Of a stretch of 64,000 bases of DNA, positions 15,707 to 39,889 are shown piece by piece (position 1 is the stretch's first letter; the number at the start of each line of letters is the position of its first letter). The stretch lies in the NCBI GenBank assembly GCA_022181065.1, contig BQMY01000119.1:1-64000 (forward strand), written 5' to 3'. The notes beneath the pieces are model-generated. The model had not been told where the DNA came from. It saw nothing but the letters and a program-made list of their open reading frames with translations, and made no database searches. Position numbers and translations under genes: made by a program. The stretch is from Melioribacteraceae bacterium (GTDB lineage: Bacteria > Bacteroidota > Ignavibacteria > Ignavibacteriales > Melioribacteraceae).

Positions 15707-16084
15707 CTAAATATCTTTTATGATTTTATCAGATAACCAGTTAATTATTGTTTCATAAGTAAAAGTATGATCCTCAAGATTTTTTATGAAAAACTTATGA
15801 CCATCATCCGGTTTACAGTTAATTTTATACCCGTTGATTCTTAAAAAAATATCAGTTGCGAAAAATGCGATTCTTTTATTTCCATCAATAAAACAATGGT
15901 TTTTTGTAAGGCTTTCCATCAGAGCTGAAGCTTCTTCTATAATATCATCATAATATCCTGTTATGGGTCTGTTTACTGCCGCTTCCAGAGCAGCTTTATC
16001 CCGCAAGCCATTAATCCCGCCAAATTCTCTAATCAAATTTTCGTAAATAGTCAACACATCTTCAACATTCAGATAAGTTCTCAT
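15707..16084 (-). CDS. Doc-type (death-on-curing) Fic-domain toxin
   Basis: The 125-residue protein is the right size for Doc. The Fic core motif HCFIDGNKR lies at residues 63-71, with the catalytic histidine and the phosphate-binding GNKR loop that in Doc phosphorylates elongation factor Tu and stops translation. GGINGLRDKAALEAAVNRP (22-40) is the typical Doc N-terminus. Its start overlaps the upstream antitoxin stop by 4 bp (ATGA), the usual toxin-antitoxin arrangement. The partner is not a Phd-type antitoxin but looks like RelB/DinJ. Confidence 0.9.
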   Translation of the reverse strand: MRTYLNVEDVLTIYENLIREFGGINGLRDKAALEAAVNRPITGYYDDIIEEASALMESLTKNHCFIDGNKRIAFFATDIFLRINGYKINCKPDDGHKFFIKNLEDHTFTYETIINWLSDKIIKDI

Positions 16085-16583: not shown

Positions 16584-16790
16584 ATGCCTAGAGGTAAATC
16601 GGGTAGAATTGTCTTAGAAATAGATACTGAATTAAAAAGGAAACTGTACTTGACGCTCGAAAAAGACCAAAAAACGCTACGTGAATGGTTTATTGAGAAT
16701 GCAGTTAACTATATTTCCGAAGATAACATTTCGCTTTTTTTGGCCGCTGAACCAAAAGCTAAATATGAGGCAAAAAAGCATGAACTTTAA
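16584..16790 (+). CDS. Small possible ribbon-helix-helix protein leading the R-M operon
   Basis: The 68-residue protein starts MPRGKSGRIVLEIDTELKRK, a beta strand with alternating hydrophobics followed by a helix (LYLTLEKDQKTLREWFIENAV), which resembles a ribbon-helix-helix or Arc/CopG-like fold. An AAGGA ribosome-binding site lies 11 bases before the ATG. Its last 11 bp overlap the methyltransferase start (ATG at 16780), so the two are coupled. Many R-M systems have a small controller gene here; classic C proteins are helix-turn-helix, so this would be a different type. Assignment as a regulator is inference. Confidence 0.6.
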   Translation: MPRGKSGRIVLEIDTELKRKLYLTLEKDQKTLREWFIENAVNYISEDNISLFLAAEPKAKYEAKKHEL

Positions 16791-18411
16791 GATCCTAGAA
16801 ACTGAGCAAAAGCTTCGGGGTGGTTATTACACACCTGAAATATTAGCGGATTTCATTAATCGATGGGTGCTTGAAAGTAATCCCAAACAGATTTTAGAAC
16901 CAAGTTGTGGTGATGGGGTTTTTTTTGAATCCTTTTTCAATACCTTTAGGGATTCAATCATGTTGACAGCGTTCGAAATTAATGAATCGGAGTCCCGTAA
17001 AGCCGAGCAACGTTTTTATCAGAACAATTATAATAACTTTAAAATCTTCAATAAAGATTTTCTTAAATGGACCGTTCAAAATTTTAACACAGACGCAAAA
17101 TTCGATGCCGTTGTAGGAAACCCACCTTTCATTCGATATCAATATCTCGAAGATGATACTCAAAGTTTAATTGAAATGATTTTCAAGTTATTGAGGTTAA
17201 AATTCACAAAGCATACTAACCTCTGGGTTCCTTTTGTATTAGCATCAATACATTTTTTAAAACCTCAAGGCAGATTGGGAATGGTTCTTCCTGCAGAAAT
17301 ACTTCACGTGATGCATGCTCAATCTTTGAGAACTTATTTAGGTCAGAATTGTGAGCGTCTGCTGATATTCGATCCTGAAGACCTTTGGTTTACTGATACA
17401 TTGCAAGGAGCAGTAGTGTTATTTGCTGAAAAAAAGAAAGAAATAGAAAGTGAGACCAAAGGACTAAGTATTATTAAAACCAAAGGGTATAAATTTACAG
17501 AAGAATCACCATCTAAATATATTAGTAGTGCAAAATATATTAATGGTAAAACTATCGAAGGTAAGTGGACATATGCATTATTAACAGACGTGGAGTACGA
17601 TCTACTTCTTTCTTTGAGAAGAAATAAATACATTCATCAATTTAAGAATATAGCAGATGTAGATGTTGGGATTGTAACTGGAGCAAATAAATATTTCTTG
17701 GTCAATGATGAAGTTATTAAAAAATTCGATCTAGAAAAGTATTCTCATCCAATGTTTGGCCGGAGTGAACATTGCCAAGGCGTTATTTATGATGAAATTC
17801 AACACCAGAAAAATATTTCTAATGGGGCGCCAACCAATTTTATCTGGTTCGATATAGATTCAGAAGAAGAGTTGAATTTATTACAAAAAGACTATTTAAA
17901 AGTGGGAAAAGCTGAATCTATCCATTTAAGGTATAAATGTAGAATCAGAAATCCCTGGTTCAGAGTCCCCTCAGTTTATACTACCAAAATTGGAATGCTC
18001 AAACGAGCACACGAATTCCCAAAACTCATTTTGAATGACATTCAGGCTTATACCACTGACACATCATATCGAATTAAGTCAAAGTATTTGGATGAATCCT
18101 CTATTGTATATTCCTTCATAAATTCATTGACGGCATTGACTGCTGAATTAGAAGGTCGACATTACGGTGGTGGAGTGCTCGAATTGGTTCCATCTGAAAT
18201 TGAGAAATTGCTAATACCTATTCCACAAAATCTTAATTTTGTGAGTGGTCTCAAAAAATTGAATGAAGAATTCACTCACAAAATTAATGCTCAAGAAATA
18301 CTAGGTAAGCAAGATCAAATAATACTATCTGCAATTGGTTTATCCAAAGAAGAAATCCGGGTTATACAATCCGCTAGAAAGAGATTATCTGCAAGAAGAC
18401 GAAGAATCTAA
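16780..18411 (+). CDS. Gamma-class N6-adenine DNA methyltransferase (TaqI-like), type II R-M
   Basis: The ATG at 16780 is chosen because it overlaps the preceding stop; an upstream in-frame ATG at 16681 lies wholly inside the small gene. The 543-residue protein shows motif X at RGGYYTPE (about 13-20), the SAM-binding motif I at ILEPSCGDGVF (38-48) and the catalytic motif IV NPPF (114-117), in the X-I-IV order of gamma-type methyltransferases such as M.TaqI. The remaining 350 residues should hold the target-recognition domain (LEGRHYGGGVLELVPSEIEKL near the end is typical of these). It methylates adenine in the site cut by the neighbouring nuclease. It ends 5 bp from the convergent nuclease gene. 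Confidence 0.88.
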   Translation: MNFKILETEQKLRGGYYTPEILADFINRWVLESNPKQILEPSCGDGVFFESFFNTFRDSIMLTAFEINESESRKAEQRFYQNNYNNFKIFNKDFLKWTVQNFNTDAKFDAVVGNPPFIRYQYLEDDTQSLIEMIFKLLRLKFTKHTNLWVPFVLASIHFLKPQGRLGMVLPAEILHVMHAQSLRTYLGQNCERLLIFDPEDLWFTDTLQGAVVLFAEKKKEIESETKGLSIIKTKGYKFTEESPSKYISSAKYINGKTIEGKWTYALLTDVEYDLLLSLRRNKYIHQFKNIADVDVGIVTGANKYFLVNDEVIKKFDLEKYSHPMFGRSEHCQGVIYDEIQHQKNISNGAPTNFIWFDIDSEEELNLLQKDYLKVGKAESIHLRYKCRIRNPWFRVPSVYTTKIGMLKRAHEFPKLILNDIQAYTTDTSYRIKSKYLDESSIVYSFINSLTALTAELEGRHYGGGVLELVPSEIEKLLIPIPQNLNFVSGLKKLNEEFTHKINAQEILGKQDQIILSAIGLSKEEIRVIQSARKRLSARRRRI

Positions 18412-18416
18412 ATAAA

Positions 18417-19577
18417 TTACTCTATACTAATCGTAAAATAATCTAAATTAAATACTGGAGCATATAAGCGCAGAGTGCAACCGAGTAAATGACTTTGTGC
18501 AATCACACTTTTGGCATCACCCCAATGTAATTGTGTCATGGCATTTTTCTGTTGATAAGAAATTGTATTCTTTTTAGTATTATGACTTATTTGTAGTTCA
18601 TATGTACCTCTTAGAATTCCTTTGATAATAATCCTAAATGTTGTACTCGCTCTTTCGATATGAGCTTTCTTTGATCTCCTATCCAATTGCCAATTTAAAT
18701 CCTTAAATACAGACTCACGAAAATAGCTTCTATGGTCAATATTAAGAGTTTTACCCTTTTTAAGTAATATTGAACCCGTTGCATGAGTGTTAGAACCAGA
18801 AGGTATGTTAAGATCACGCTCTGTTAGCGGTTTACTTATCCATATCAATGAGCTTTCGGTTTCCTTAGAAACTATCTTTGTACTTGTTTTTTTTCCGGTT
18901 TCTTTTTCTTTTTGCTGCTCACCAATTATATGATAACGAGTTTTTAATTTGATTTTTCGAATTTCTTTGGCATTGTTTTTTAAGCTATTTCCAATTACTT
19001 TAGGCAATAAATGCACATTCTCATCTACTAAGCGTCCTTCTTTATGGAGATTCTCTAATTGATCTAGTGTTTTTATTCTATAAACATTTCTTGGATGATT
19101 AGTCTCTAATTTTTCAAATGCTAATAAGATTTCTTCTAAATAATTTTTATCCATTATAGTATTCAGGTCAAGAAGAAGAATTGAACTTGCCTCTATATTG
19201 CGAACTAGTCCACCAAAGGTTAAATTTGCACTTCCAATTATAATTTTCGCCTCAGTTTTTGAGTAAGACAAATATACTTTTGGATGAAATATTATGTCTG
19301 TTGAAGCGGTATCAACAATTATAATTTCAACATCAAGCATTTTTAGTTCCTTAAGGGCCTGAATAGAAGTAATGCCATTCCTAATACCCAAAATGACTTT
19401 AGCTTTTTTCTTGTATTTTTGAAGGAATTTCTTTATTAGTTTTACTCCATATAAACGACAATACCCTACACTTATTAAAACGCCTTCGATTTCTCTTAAC
19501 TCAAATAGTTGTTCAATTTGAGAAAGATGATCTTTCACATCACTTTCACCTTGAAGAATAAAATCAATTTTTACCAC
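18417..19577 (-). CDS. Phospholipase-D-fold nuclease, probable restriction endonuclease of the N6-MTase system
   Basis: The 386-residue protein has a single HKD-type motif: HPKVYLSYSK starts at His98 (HxK = His98/Lys100) and continues to IIIGSANLTFGG (112-123). One HKD motif per chain means an active dimer, as in BfiI and NgoFVII, metal-independent restriction enzymes of this fold. The C-terminal 200 residues are basic and probably bind DNA. It starts with GTG at 19575-19577, with a strong GAGGAGG site just after the GT4 stop, so it may be transcribed with the genes to its right. It converges on the methyltransferase gene with a 5-bp gap. Confidence 0.8.
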   Translation of the reverse strand: MVKIDFILQGESDVKDHLSQIEQLFELREIEGVLISVGYCRLYGVKLIKKFLQKYKKKAKVILGIRNGITSIQALKELKMLDVEIIIVDTASTDIIFHPKVYLSYSKTEAKIIIGSANLTFGGLVRNIEASSILLLDLNTIMDKNYLEEILLAFEKLETNHPRNVYRIKTLDQLENLHKEGRLVDENVHLLPKVIGNSLKNNAKEIRKIKLKTRYHIIGEQQKEKETGKKTSTKIVSKETESSLIWISKPLTERDLNIPSGSNTHATGSILLKKGKTLNIDHRSYFRESVFKDLNWQLDRRSKKAHIERASTTFRIIIKGILRGTYELQISHNTKKNTISYQQKNAMTQLHWGDAKSVIAQSHLLGCTLRLYAPVFNLDYFTISIE

Positions 19578-36474: not shown

Positions 36475-36753
36475 GTGAAAGAGCTTTTGAAATTAAAAAA
36501 TATTGGTGAAGTATCAGCCAAAATGCTTGTGGAAATAGATGTCCACAACCGCGGGGATATAGAAAAACTTGGTCCGGCTACAATATATCATATCCTCAAA
36601 GCTCAAGGCTACAACGTCAATATCATGATGGTGTACGCGCTCTACGGTGCGTTGAAAAACAAACATTACATTGAAATATCGGAAGCAGAAAAGGATGAGC
36701 TTCAAAAACAGATAAAAAATCAGCCTTTCGACAGTCTCGAAGGAACCTTATGA
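36475..36753 (+). CDS. TfoX C-terminal-domain-like protein (helix-hairpin-helix)
   Basis: The 92-residue protein, starting with GTG, matches the TfoX/Sxy C-terminal domain: LLKLKNIGEVSAKMLVEIDV (4-23) is a helix-hairpin-helix, followed by LGPATIYHILKAQGYNVN and MMVYALYGALKNKHYIEIS. There is no N-terminal TfoX domain, so it is the stand-alone version. Related domains act in competence regulation; the role of the short form is unclear. Its TGA stop overlaps an ATG (ATGA at 36750-36753) that once probably opened the gene now starting at 38914, before the R-M cassette was inserted. Confidence 0.8.
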   Translation: MKELLKLKNIGEVSAKMLVEIDVHNRGDIEKLGPATIYHILKAQGYNVNIMMVYALYGALKNKHYIEISEAEKDELQKQIKNQPFDSLEGTL

Positions 36754-36766
36754 GCGAACCAACATT
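36748..36766 (+). repeat. Left copy of 19-bp direct repeat flanking the C5 R-M cassette
   Basis: TTATGAGCGAACCAACATT here matches 38912-38930 at 18 of 19 positions. It contains the same start codon and first five codons (MSEPT) as the membrane-protein gene at 38914, then runs into a stop at 36784-36786 after 11 codons. It is a relic start and marks the left insertion boundary. Confidence 0.8.
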
Positions 36767-36832
36767 ACAAATCATTTTTTATTAAAACTTGCCCATATTT
36801 TAATAGGATTATTTTAAATAATTAACTAATTT

Positions 36833-36866
36833 ATAACCATTGTATAATGTTGTGTAAAGTGGTTAT
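36833..36866 (+). promoter_or_regulatory. Inverted repeat around the C5-methyltransferase promoter
   Basis: ATAACCA (36833-36839) and TGGTTAT (36860-36866) form a perfect 7-bp inverted repeat enclosing TGTATAAT, an extended -10 element (36841-36848). The start codon is at 36869, so the leader is very short and has no clear ribosome-binding site. The HTH domain at the start of the methyltransferase could bind here and repress its own gene. Confidence 0.45.
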
Positions 36867-36868
36867 TT

Positions 36869-38098
36869 ATGAATAAATTTTATTCTTTATCCGAAGCAGC
36901 TGAATTATTTGGAAAAAGCAAGGAAACTTTGAGGAGATGGGATAAGAAGGGAATTTTAACAGCAGTAAGAGAACCTATTTCAAATTATAGAGTTTTTAGA
37001 AAGGAAGATGTACAATTATTATTAGGTGACTTTTACACTGAGTCTAGCAAAGATGATATTTCCAACTTTGTTATACCTGATAATGAGTACACTGTTTTGG
37101 AGCTTTTTGCGGGAGCGGGTGGTTTAGCTCTCGGGCTAGAAAAAGCTGGTTTAAAATGTGTTGGACTGAATGAAATTGATAAATTTGCCTGTGCTACATT
37201 ACGTAAAAACAGACCAAGTTGGAATATTTTGGAAGGCGATATTAAAGAGTTAGACTTTTCAGAATTTAAAAACAGTGTTGATGTTGTTACCGGTGGTTTT
37301 CCTTGTCAAGCGTTTAGTTATGCGGGTAAAAAATTGGGATTAGAAGACACCCGAGGTACCTTGTTTTACGAATTTGCAAGAGTGGTTAAGGAAGTTAATC
37401 CTTTAATGTGTATTGGAGAAAACGTTCGAGGGCTTCTCAGTCACGATGGTGGTAAAACTATTCAAGGCATGATTTCGGTATTGGATGAAATTGGCTACAA
37501 GGTTGTTCCGGTAAATGTTTTGAAAGCAGTTAATTTTAAAGTTCCTCAAAAAAGAGAACGACTTATTTTAGTTGGAATCAGGAAAGATATAAATATTAAA
37601 TATGATTATCCCAAACCGCATAGAAAAATTTATACTTTAAAAGACGCCTTAAAAAAAGGTGAACTTTTTAATACCGATGTACCTGTTTCAGAAGGAGTTA
37701 AGTACCCACCTGGAAAAAGGCAAATTCTGGATTTAGTTCCTCCTAAAGGATATTGGAGAGATTTACCCGTTGATATTCAAAAAAAATATATGGGAGGTAG
37801 TTTCTATCTTGGTGGTGGAAAAACCGGTATGGCCAGGAGAATTGGTTGGGATGAACCTTCATTAACGCTAACATGCAGTCCCGCACAGAAGCAAACTGAA
37901 AGATGTCACCCGGATGAAACCCGACCTTTTACTGTCAGGGAATATGCAAGAATACAAACATTTCCCGATGAATGGCAATTTGCGGGTTCAACTGCTCAAA
38001 AATATAAACAAATTGGAAACGCAGTACCTGTAAATCTTGCTCTGGAACTAGGGTATTCAATAATAAAATTTTTAAATGCGTACTATAAATCTACTTAA
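36869..38098 (+). CDS. C5-cytosine DNA methyltransferase with N-terminal MerR-like HTH, type II R-M
   Basis: The 409-residue protein begins with a MerR/excisionase-like winged HTH (YSLSEAAELFGKSKETLRRW, 5-24; GILTAVREPISNYRVFRKED, 28-47). The methyltransferase domain follows: motif I TVLELFAGAGG (75-85), catalytic motif IV GGFPCQAFS with Cys146, motif VI GENVRG, motif VIII QKRERLILVG and motif X KQIGNAVPVNLA at the end. It transfers a methyl group to C5 of cytosine in the site cut by the neighbouring EcoO109I-like enzyme. HTH-extended C5 methyltransferases such as M.SsoII and M.EcoRII regulate their own genes. It overlaps the convergent nuclease gene by 8 bp. Confidence 0.92.
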   Translation: MNKFYSLSEAAELFGKSKETLRRWDKKGILTAVREPISNYRVFRKEDVQLLLGDFYTESSKDDISNFVIPDNEYTVLELFAGAGGLALGLEKAGLKCVGLNEIDKFACATLRKNRPSWNILEGDIKELDFSEFKNSVDVVTGGFPCQAFSYAGKKLGLEDTRGTLFYEFARVVKEVNPLMCIGENVRGLLSHDGGKTIQGMISVLDEIGYKVVPVNVLKAVNFKVPQKRERLILVGIRKDINIKYDYPKPHRKIYTLKDALKKGELFNTDVPVSEGVKYPPGKRQILDLVPPKGYWRDLPVDIQKKYMGGSFYLGGGKTGMARRIGWDEPSLTLTCSPAQKQTERCHPDETRPFTVREYARIQTFPDEWQFAGSTAQKYKQIGNAVPVNLALELGYSIIKFLNAYYKST

Positions 38099-38801
38099 AA
38101 TAATTTCTTTTAATATCCTCCGCTAAAGACTTAATTGTATTTTTGATTACATTTTGTCCATCCATTTCGAGAGCGACTTCCCCGAATGCATCGATGAGTT
38201 CATAATAAAATTCTGTTATTCCGGTTAATCGATACCAAAACTCTTGTCCAACGTAAACAGGAAATGTTTGATTCAATTTCTTGTAATGTGAACTTAAACC
38301 GGAAGACTCACCATATATTACTCCGACAATTAAATCGTCTAATTCGATTCGCAAATTATTTGTGCGAGCCCTGTTTCTGATGTCAGAAAAATGATTCACT
38401 ATGGTGGTAACATCATCATAGTTTATTGTATTTGGTCCAGCTTTAAGTTGACAATACTTTTTTCTATTATCAGTTGAGTCAATAAACTCAATATCGATAC
38501 CCGGCGTAGTTGACCCCAAACCCTCAAACAGTACACTTATGAGGTCCTGAATTCTCATACCAAAAGTTGTTGCAATCGAAGATCCAAGAATTCTTGGTAA
38601 TATGAGTGCCTCTGCAATACTTTCCGGTTCATCGTTTCCTTTTAAAAAGTTTGCCAAATACTTAAAGAGAAATGGATTTACGTTATACTCTTTTAACTTA
38701 CCAGCTTTCTTGCAAGATTTTTCAATATGCGTTTGAACTATTTCAGTTCTAAAAAATTCTTTAGCTCTTTTAAGTAAAATTTCTCTTTGTTCAACATTCA
38801 T
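38091..38801 (-). CDS. EcoO109I-like type II restriction endonuclease
   Basis: The 236-residue protein resembles EcoO109I (RGGNCCY) in order and wording: ALILPRILGSSIATTFG (about 65-81), GIDIEF then KKYCQLKAGPNTINYDD (catalytic D...xLK core, about 100-128), DLIVGVIYGESSGLSSHYKKL and VYVGQEFWYRLTGI. The core fits a PD-(D/E)xK fold in which the second acidic residue is replaced by Gln or displaced, as in LSLKAG of EcoO109I. By homology the site may be a GGNCC-type sequence, which is inference. A -10-like TATAAT (38817-38822) lies only 16 bp before the start, so the leader is very short. It converges on the methyltransferase with an 8-bp overlap. Confidence 0.85.
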   Translation of the reverse strand: MNVEQREILLKRAKEFFRTEIVQTHIEKSCKKAGKLKEYNVNPFLFKYLANFLKGNDEPESIAEALILPRILGSSIATTFGMRIQDLISVLFEGLGSTTPGIDIEFIDSTDNRKKYCQLKAGPNTINYDDVTTIVNHFSDIRNRARTNNLRIELDDLIVGVIYGESSGLSSHYKKLNQTFPVYVGQEFWYRLTGITEFYYELIDAFGEVALEMDGQNVIKNTIKSLAEDIKRNYFK

Positions 38802-38911
38802 AGTATATTATAACCGGAATAACTTTGAAAATAATCTGTAAATACAATATAATATTCTTAAACGAAATTTGATTTAAGTTGTTTGTCAACTTTAATTTTT
38901 TTGATGGAGTT

Positions 38912-38930
38912 TTATGAGCGAGCCAACATT
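38912..38930 (+). repeat. Right copy of the 19-bp direct repeat flanking the C5 R-M cassette
   Basis: TTATGAGCGAGCCAACATT matches 36748-36766 with one transition. Here it opens the intact membrane-protein gene. Over a wider 25-bp window (from GGA upstream) 21 positions agree, all four differences being transitions, as expected of an old duplication under drift. Confidence 0.8.
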
Positions 38931-39513
38931 TTCCTGGAAAAGTGTAATATTCGAATCTCTTTTCGTGGTGATGGGTGTGGTACTCGCGTTTATTGGTAAT
39001 GAATACAGATCGTCTCTTCAGGAGGAACAAAAGGCCAGGAAAGCAATAAAAAGTATTCTGTTTGAAATTGAAAACAATAAAAGCGCTATCGAGGTATCTC
39101 TGAAGTATCACGAATATCTGAGAGATACACTTTTCAGCTTCATGCGAAATAATCCATCAGCCAATTCCGCACCGGAAATACAGGTTTTTGAAAAAGGTTT
39201 TATATCACCGGCTGAACTCCTTTCAACCGCGTATCAGACCGCGCTCGCCACAGATGTTCTAAATAACTACAAATATGAACTCGTGCTCGAAATAGGTAAT
39301 CTTTACGCCAAACAACAGAGTTATGACCATCAGAAAGCGAGGGTTGGTGATATTATATATAAGGCTTTATACACCGAAGGCAGAATAAAAATGCTTGCTA
39401 ACTACAGGAATCTTTTAAGTGTGATTTTGACTTTCACATATAAGGAGCGGGAATTAATAAAAGCTTATGAAGCTACTATAGAAGACCTGACGGAGTATCG
39501 TACAATTGAATAA
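38914..39513 (+). CDS. Single-span membrane protein of unknown function
   Basis: The 199-residue protein has one N-terminal hydrophobic segment (VIFESLFVVMGVVLAFIGNEY, split about 11-31) and a long helical, charged remainder (EEQKARKAIKSILFEIENNK and on). Related short proteins with an N-terminal anchor and a predicted helical bundle are common in this phylum but have no known function. It was probably once coupled to the TfoX-like gene. It overlaps the diacylglycerol kinase start by 8 bp, so the pair is coupled. Confidence 0.7.
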   Translation: MSEPTFSWKSVIFESLFVVMGVVLAFIGNEYRSSLQEEQKARKAIKSILFEIENNKSAIEVSLKYHEYLRDTLFSFMRNNPSANSAPEIQVFEKGFISPAELLSTAYQTALATDVLNNYKYELVLEIGNLYAKQQSYDHQKARVGDIIYKALYTEGRIKMLANYRNLLSVILTFTYKERELIKAYEATIEDLTEYRTIE

Positions 39514-39889
39514 ATATTTACGTAAAGAAATAAAAAGTTTCGGGCACGCGTTCCGGGGTATTTACATATTAGTTAGCACCCAGCCTCACGCAAAAATTCA
39601 TTTGGTCGCATCAATTGTAGTTCTTTTAAGCGGGATAATTCTTGACTATTCGTCAATTGAGTGGGCGATATTGGTTGTGATGATTGGTGTTGTAATTGCT
39701 GCCGAAGGTATCAACTCCGCGATAGAATTTCTCGCTGATCGTGTATCAAATGAATATCATGAATTAATAAAAAACGCTAAAGATGTGGCGGCGGGTTCGG
39801 TTCTTTTACTCGCGATAAGCTCCGTAATAGTCGCTTCAATAATTATCCTCCCCAAATTTATAAAGTATTTACAGACTTGCCTCATATAA
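39506..39889 (+). CDS. dgkA: Diacylglycerol/undecaprenol kinase
   Basis: The 127-residue integral membrane kinase starts with TTG inside the previous gene. It has three helices and the DgkA signatures: SFGHAFRGIYILVSTQPHAKIH (split about 11-32), AEGINSAIEFLADRVS (about 66-81) with the catalytic glutamate, and KNAKDVAAGSVLL. It phosphorylates diacylglycerol or undecaprenol with ATP, recycling lipid carrier for cell-wall and polysaccharide synthesis. Gram-negative DgkA uses diacylglycerol; sequences with this EGxNSAIE motif from many phyla prefer undecaprenol, so the substrate is open. Confidence 0.92.
   Translation: MNKYLRKEIKSFGHAFRGIYILVSTQPHAKIHLVASIVVLLSGIILDYSSIEWAILVVMIGVVIAAEGINSAIEFLADRVSNEYHELIKNAKDVAAGSVLLLAISSVIVASIIILPKFIKYLQTCLI

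Follow-up and report, generated by a model that had tools for sequence, protein, structure and literature searches.

How did a restriction–modification (R-M) cassette come to lie between two genes that now carry the two copies of a short direct repeat? The question is raised by a window of 64,000 nucleotides, the whole stretch of DNA that was analysed, from a Melioribacteraceae bacterium. Here an R-M pair separates a TfoX-like gene from a gene whose product begins MSEPTF. The original prediction held that the pair had been inserted into a coupled gene junction with duplication of its target, and that the repeat comprises 19 bp with one mismatch. Both copies were confirmed in the sequence. The left copy, TTATGAGCGAACCAACATT (positions 36748–36766, forward strand), sits on the stop of the TfoX-like gene, and the right copy, TTATGAGCGAGCCAACATT (38912–38930, forward strand), holds the start codon of the downstream gene; they are identical at 18 of 19 positions, with a single-base difference. 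As claimed, both copies contain the same ATG. The right one is the start of the MSEPT gene. The left one overlaps the TGA stop of the TfoX-like gene as ATGA and opens an orphan reading frame of 11 codons followed by TAA (36750–36785, forward strand), a putative remnant of a duplicated gene start.

The insert between the repeats is 2,145 bp long and contains two genes, bordered on either side by an AT-rich stretch of about 100 bp. The first gene (36869–38098, forward strand) encodes a C5-cytosine DNA methyltransferase (MTase) of 409 aa with an N-terminal MerR-type helix-turn-helix (HTH) domain (Pfam DNA_methylase, 4.8e-84; MerR_1, 1.4e-7), whose relatives in the PDB include M.HaeIII and M.HhaI. 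The second (38091–38801, reverse strand) encodes a type II restriction endonuclease of 236 aa from the EcoO109I/PmeII family (Pfam RE_EcoO109I, 1.2e-33; PDB 1wtd, 3.4e-6), and three of its four plasmid relatives are annotated as PmeII family. The two genes lie tail-to-tail with an overlap of 8 bp. They are the sole two frames of at least 50 aa wholly between the copies, which agrees with the prediction of exactly one methyltransferase and one nuclease there. No recombinase or transposase was found among the frames of this size, and the cassette thus lacks one of its own.

With a nuclease of this family paired with a DNA methyltransferase, the locus falls among the EcoO109I/PmeII-family type II R-M systems and, judged by its protein families, should act as an ordinary type II R-M system. 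It shares with them the nuclease family and the paired C5 MTase, but differs in having no separate controller gene between the repeats, the MTase itself carrying the MerR-type domain. By composition the cassette appears foreign: its insert has a GC content of 33.5%, compared with about 40% on each side, and the GC content at third codon positions (GC3) is 23% and 27% in the two cassette genes, compared with 37–42% in the five other genes measured. Terminal inverted repeats above shuffles were not detected, since the score was reached by 417 of 500 shuffles for 40-bp ends and by 157 of 500 for 100-bp ends.

The genes on both sides of the cassette are oriented in the same direction. The TfoX-like gene (36475–36753, forward strand, GTG start as listed) encodes 92 aa matching the TfoX C-terminal domain (Pfam TfoX_C, 2.8e-16); its TGA stop falls within the left repeat copy, and the gene is not truncated in comparison with three homologues. 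It follows a forward-strand run of genes for a TetR-like protein, an HlyD-like membrane fusion protein, two ABC ATPases, an outer-membrane efflux protein and two ABC-2 permeases. The downstream MSEPT gene (38914–39513, forward strand, 199 aa) is membrane-protein-like by eye and matches no Pfam family. It is followed by a diacylglycerol kinase gene (DAGK; 39506–39889, forward strand, TTG start as listed; Pfam DAGK_prokar, 1.4e-31), with which it overlaps by 8 bp (39506–39513), provided that the listed TTG start is right.

The significance of the repeat depends on how often such a sequence arises by chance. The original prediction would have fared badly if the 19-mer were a common repeat of the genome. 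We searched the genome for it by pattern (4,901,315 bp, 164 contigs), allowing up to three mismatches and writing the variable base as R. At up to two mismatches, 36748–36766 and 38912–38930 are the only matches in the 4.9-Mb genome. The other two genomic matches differ at three positions and fall within opposite-strand open reading frames, so the 19-mer is not a dispersed repeat. The repeat scores 16.5, compared with maxima of 14.5 and 13 in Markov-sampled shuffles of the flanks (n = 60 and n = 100, respectively). When 300-bp segments separated by 2.15 kb were paired at random within the window, 3 of 150 pairs scored at least 16.5. With tiled window pairs, 4 of 246 did so: the flanking repeat itself and three pairs between two ABC-transporter ATPase genes, both of which match Pfam ABC_tran. 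A direct repeat flanks the R-M unit immediately, as in R-M insertion with target duplication.

When viral contigs were scanned for exact matches to the 19-mer TTATGAGCGARCCAACATT, four contained it, in two distinct sequences, the three displayed stretches around the 19-mer in contigs L099–L101 being identical. In L098 (1292–1310), TTATGAGCGARCCAACATT forms the start of a 78-aa frame, and in L099 (4701–4719) it lies 11 codons inside a 242-aa frame whose true start may be there. The two viral genes that carry it at or just inside their apparent starts are unrelated; gene starts of the MSEPT type can thus coincide at the DNA level.

The length of the repeat is secure only in its core. Over the 25-bp span originally proposed, 21 of 25 positions match and all four differences are transitions, as claimed, but a duplication extending over 25 bp is not secure. 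The left copy may extend leftwards over 36726–36747 (forward strand), with 38890–38911 as the partner stretch, but this is uncertain. The differences are unevenly distributed, affecting 12 of the 22 positions upstream of the core and 1 of the 19 within it (Fisher P = 0.0008); for the nearest 9 bp upstream, 4 positions differ, again compared with 1 of 19 (P = 0.026). A single duplication longer than 19 bp fits this pattern badly, because the left core, which is now non-coding, should have diverged about equally and has not. Scored by identity alone, the upstream extension is chance-like (P about 0.27–0.38); scored with tolerance of transitions it is suggestive (P about 0.003–0.007), but this scoring was post hoc. 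In view of these P values and the uneven divergence, we did not accept a longer duplication of 25, 28 or 41 bp as secure, and we take the 19-bp core as the repeat, its extension to 25 bp or more being uncertain. A ribosome-binding-like GGA lies at equal distance from the ATG in both copies, a spacing that selection alone could explain. The proposal to date the duplication by its substitutions fails, as one difference in 19 positions is not datable. A 12-mer shared by the regions upstream of the TfoX-like and MSEPT genes, TACAATATAATA, was considered as a second duplication and rejected, being at chance level (20/100 and 266/1000 shuffles).

The most direct support for insertion would come from a relative in which the junction is uninterrupted. 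We searched sets of 38, 391 (class) and 79 (family) genomes, which overlap, and a genome collection. Among the 38 relatives, the MSEPT protein has a match in its own genome only. Homologues occur in four other genomes of the 391 and two others of the 79, all at 22–34% identity and with G313 counted in both, and no match was found in the genome collection. TfoX relatives are present in 6 of the 79 family genomes, including its own, and at five loci in the genome collection; the order TfoX then MSEPT was not seen in the three relatives with neighbours listed (L004, L012 and L013). A relative with an intact single junction and no R-M genes was thus not found in the three sets or the genome collection, so that the target duplication is something we infer.

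Related cassettes are found elsewhere. In the class sample, the nuclease matched 38 other genomes, of which 37 regions were fetched (G269 was left out). A matching C5 MTase (E 1e-5) is present in one of these 37, L061 of genome G321, and the other 36 were excluded from the survey of flanks. Of the 394 other genomes in the phylum sample, five have a nuclease match at E 1e-25 or better, and all five carry an MTase, 70–76% identical, tail-to-tail with the nuclease. The same type of cassette, in this arrangement and with MTases 70–76% identical, therefore occurs at other sites in G321, G502, G509, G432/G436 and G482. A related pair on an Aerococcus plasmid is also tail-to-tail, its MTase being 51% identical, and no nuclease relatives were found in phage records or viral contigs. 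The neighbours, named by eye, differ from site to site: an isocitrate dehydrogenase-like gene at L061, a metal ABC permease-like and a YraN-like gene at L187, a STAS-like and a response-regulator-like gene at L189 and L190, and a ClpB-like and a Vsr-like gene at L191 (the latter at L191:7436–7903, beside the related cassette in G482).

As G432 and G436 are congeners with the cassette at the same site, the seven other loci represent six sites. A flanking repeat comparable to that of the window is absent from them: within the 300-bp flanks surveyed, beyond which a repeat would be missed, the best repeat of none of the seven loci exceeds the best of 100 shuffles, whereas that of the window does. 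At one of these sites a state without the cassette is available, since in G428, a congener of G432 and G436, the STAS-like gene and a gene designated MTRRKV are adjacent and the cassette is absent. Comparison with this uninterrupted site revealed no duplication in G432/G436, although the left edge is not sharp. In G432/G436 the insert includes the response-regulator-like gene as well, and in the congener some 70 bp between the genes fail to align; this is thus not a pure cassette insertion. With no comparable repeat at seven loci and none at the site compared with G428, duplication is not the rule for this type of cassette, though old insertions may have lost theirs.

Taken together, the best explanation, and in our judgement a probable one, is that the cassette was inserted at an ATGA-coupled junction with a 19-bp target duplication. 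This reading is supported by the unique repeat that exceeds shuffles, the low GC and GC3, the order and overlaps of the genes, and the presence of the cassette type at other sites, as well as by G428, which has the G432/G436 site without the cassette. It is weakened by the failure to find an empty junction, by the seven loci without a comparable repeat, by the divergence upstream of the core and by the recurrence of the 19-mer in viral contigs, since MSEPT-type gene starts can become alike through convergence. The predicted insertion with target duplication has gained from the foreign composition, the direction and overlap of the genes, the untruncated TfoX-like gene and the other sites, while the empty junction by which it was to be confirmed did not turn up. 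In the proposed course of events, the ancestral TfoX-like and MSEPT genes would have overlapped at ATGA within one operon, and a compact R-M cassette, now 2,145 bp between the repeats, would have entered at this overlap. Both sides would have been left with some 19 bp of target, or perhaps a little more; the left would have retained the TfoX stop and the right the complete MSEPT start, so that neither gene would have been broken. The likeliest route, which is our own suggestion and not drawn from a paper, would be that the cassette was captured while a staggered break was being repaired, or through template switching.

Three other origins of the repeat have to be weighed against this insertion, and the viral 19-mers bear on two of them. 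Given that the sequence recurs where unrelated viral genes appear to start, or just inside them, the left copy could be the relic start of a separate gene, either a tandem MSEPT paralogue or an unrelated gene with an MSEPT start, whose body was deleted when the cassette entered. MSEPT homologues are few and distant, so that the loss of a paralogue could go without further trace. However, the in-register similarity ends after the 19-mer, the 102-bp stretch between that point and the MTase is AT-rich (18.6% GC) and holds no 50-aa reading frame, and the bacterium's own genome contains no second MSEPT homologue at E 0.001. As this account also requires an extra gene and an extra deletion, we consider it unlikely. 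The same recurrence near viral gene starts, together with the similar composition of start regions in general, might instead mean that two ribosome-binding and start regions came to resemble each other by chance or convergence and that nothing was duplicated. We find this very improbable: the repeat, identical at 18/19 positions, scores above all flank shuffles, no other pair among the 246 tiled comparisons reaches the score outside the two ABC ATPase genes, and the left copy begins no surviving gene.

Site-specific integration would account for the repeat in another way, as the common core of an attachment site, with a recombinase acting in trans or since lost and the element restoring the gene start. 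A short direct repeat flanking a compact element and a rebuilt gene start are typical of such integration. The insert contains no recombinase, though, the related cassettes elsewhere lack a comparable flanking repeat, and the 19-mer is found nowhere else in the genome at up to two mismatches, all of which makes this origin quite improbable. A bolder version of the insertion reading is that a self-contained mobile unit without its own recombinase landed at the coupled stop/start overlap, rebuilt the downstream start and brought in a promoter at its own end, allowing the operon to survive. A sigma-70-like promoter match of 11/12 (38825–38853, forward strand) points outward from the cassette, in the direction of the downstream gene; it is weak, given that the region contains 12 promoter-like sites compared with 9.5 in shuffles. 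We hold this version to be doubtful; if true, it would represent a transposase-free mode of integration that differs from the two kinds of R-M insertion described so far.

The two described kinds differ in the length of the duplicated target. In the long-duplication insertions of Nobusato et al., as cited in PMC3031569, PMC3874152 and PMC4978471, the duplication is long and variable and, according to PMC3874152, of the order of 100 bp. Like the present locus, these insertions, in the cited accounts, have a direct repeat of the target flanking an R-M unit, with no known mobile element linked to it. The window's repeat is not of the order of 100 bp, however: 19 bp are secure, and a possible extension reaches only to about 41 bp. 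In the summary that PMC3874152 gives of Furuta et al. (2010), R-M units with a short target duplication carry imperfect terminal inverted repeats. The present locus resembles them in the short duplication around a bare R-M unit, but has no such inverted repeats above shuffles. It therefore matches neither class of duplication exactly. Insertions of this general kind have nonetheless been described, and the window case belongs among them. With a short duplication situated where two genes overlap, in an organism other than Helicobacter, it offers a usable case for testing cassette capture; to our knowledge, the means by which R-M genes move when no transposase is involved are unsettled.

The cassette also carries a candidate control element. 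A dyad, TAACCA-N20-TGGTTA (36834–36865, forward strand), lies just upstream of the MTase start and is proposed as an operator. In the window alone it is unremarkable for DNA this rich in AT, since arms of at least 7 occur in 183 of 300 shuffles. The evidence for it is its conservation across loci: TAACC-N21/22-GGTTA is present at the MTase start in 8 of the 10 upstream regions examined, namely those of the window, L061, L187, L188, L189, L190, L191 and the viral contig L107, with L189 and L190 representing one site in congeners; it is absent from the viral L108 and L109. Of 80 viral loci, six (L107–L112) were read and three (L107–L109) examined for the dyad. The N-terminal MerR_1 match is found in the MTases of the window (1.4e-7) and of L061 (5.7e-5). 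A plasmid relative outside the dyad set, L055, has a weak HTH_3 match (21.7 bits, below the curated threshold of 23) instead of MerR, and its 15-bp palindrome is a different one, as though the domain had been swapped along with its operator.

This arrangement suggests that the MTase probably represses its own gene, with the MerR-type domain binding the dyad at the start. Repression of an MTase gene through the enzyme's own N-terminal HTH is known from the systems covered in PMC3874152. Like these, as they are presented there, the cassette has a DNA-binding domain at the N terminus of its MTase and a dyad at the promoter or start of the MTase gene, but its domain is of the MerR type, its dyad is long-spaced and its repression is a prediction. 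The conserved dyad provides a concrete hypothesis for how the MTase may be controlled when the cassette enters a new host.

The window contains a further convergent R-M pair at 16681–19577, consisting of an Eco57I-type methyltransferase and a PLD-type, NgoFVII-like nuclease. No direct repeat above background flanks it, the best having 13 of 15 matches and a score of 10.0, compared with a background mean of 9.5. A short gene of the Fic/DOC family (125 aa, 15707–16084) lies nearby. Among short words in the window (1–64000), GATC (191 found, 285.1 expected) and CTNAG (87 found, 137.2 expected) are less under-represented than GGCC, which is strongly depleted with 26 occurrences compared with 92.3 expected from shorter words.
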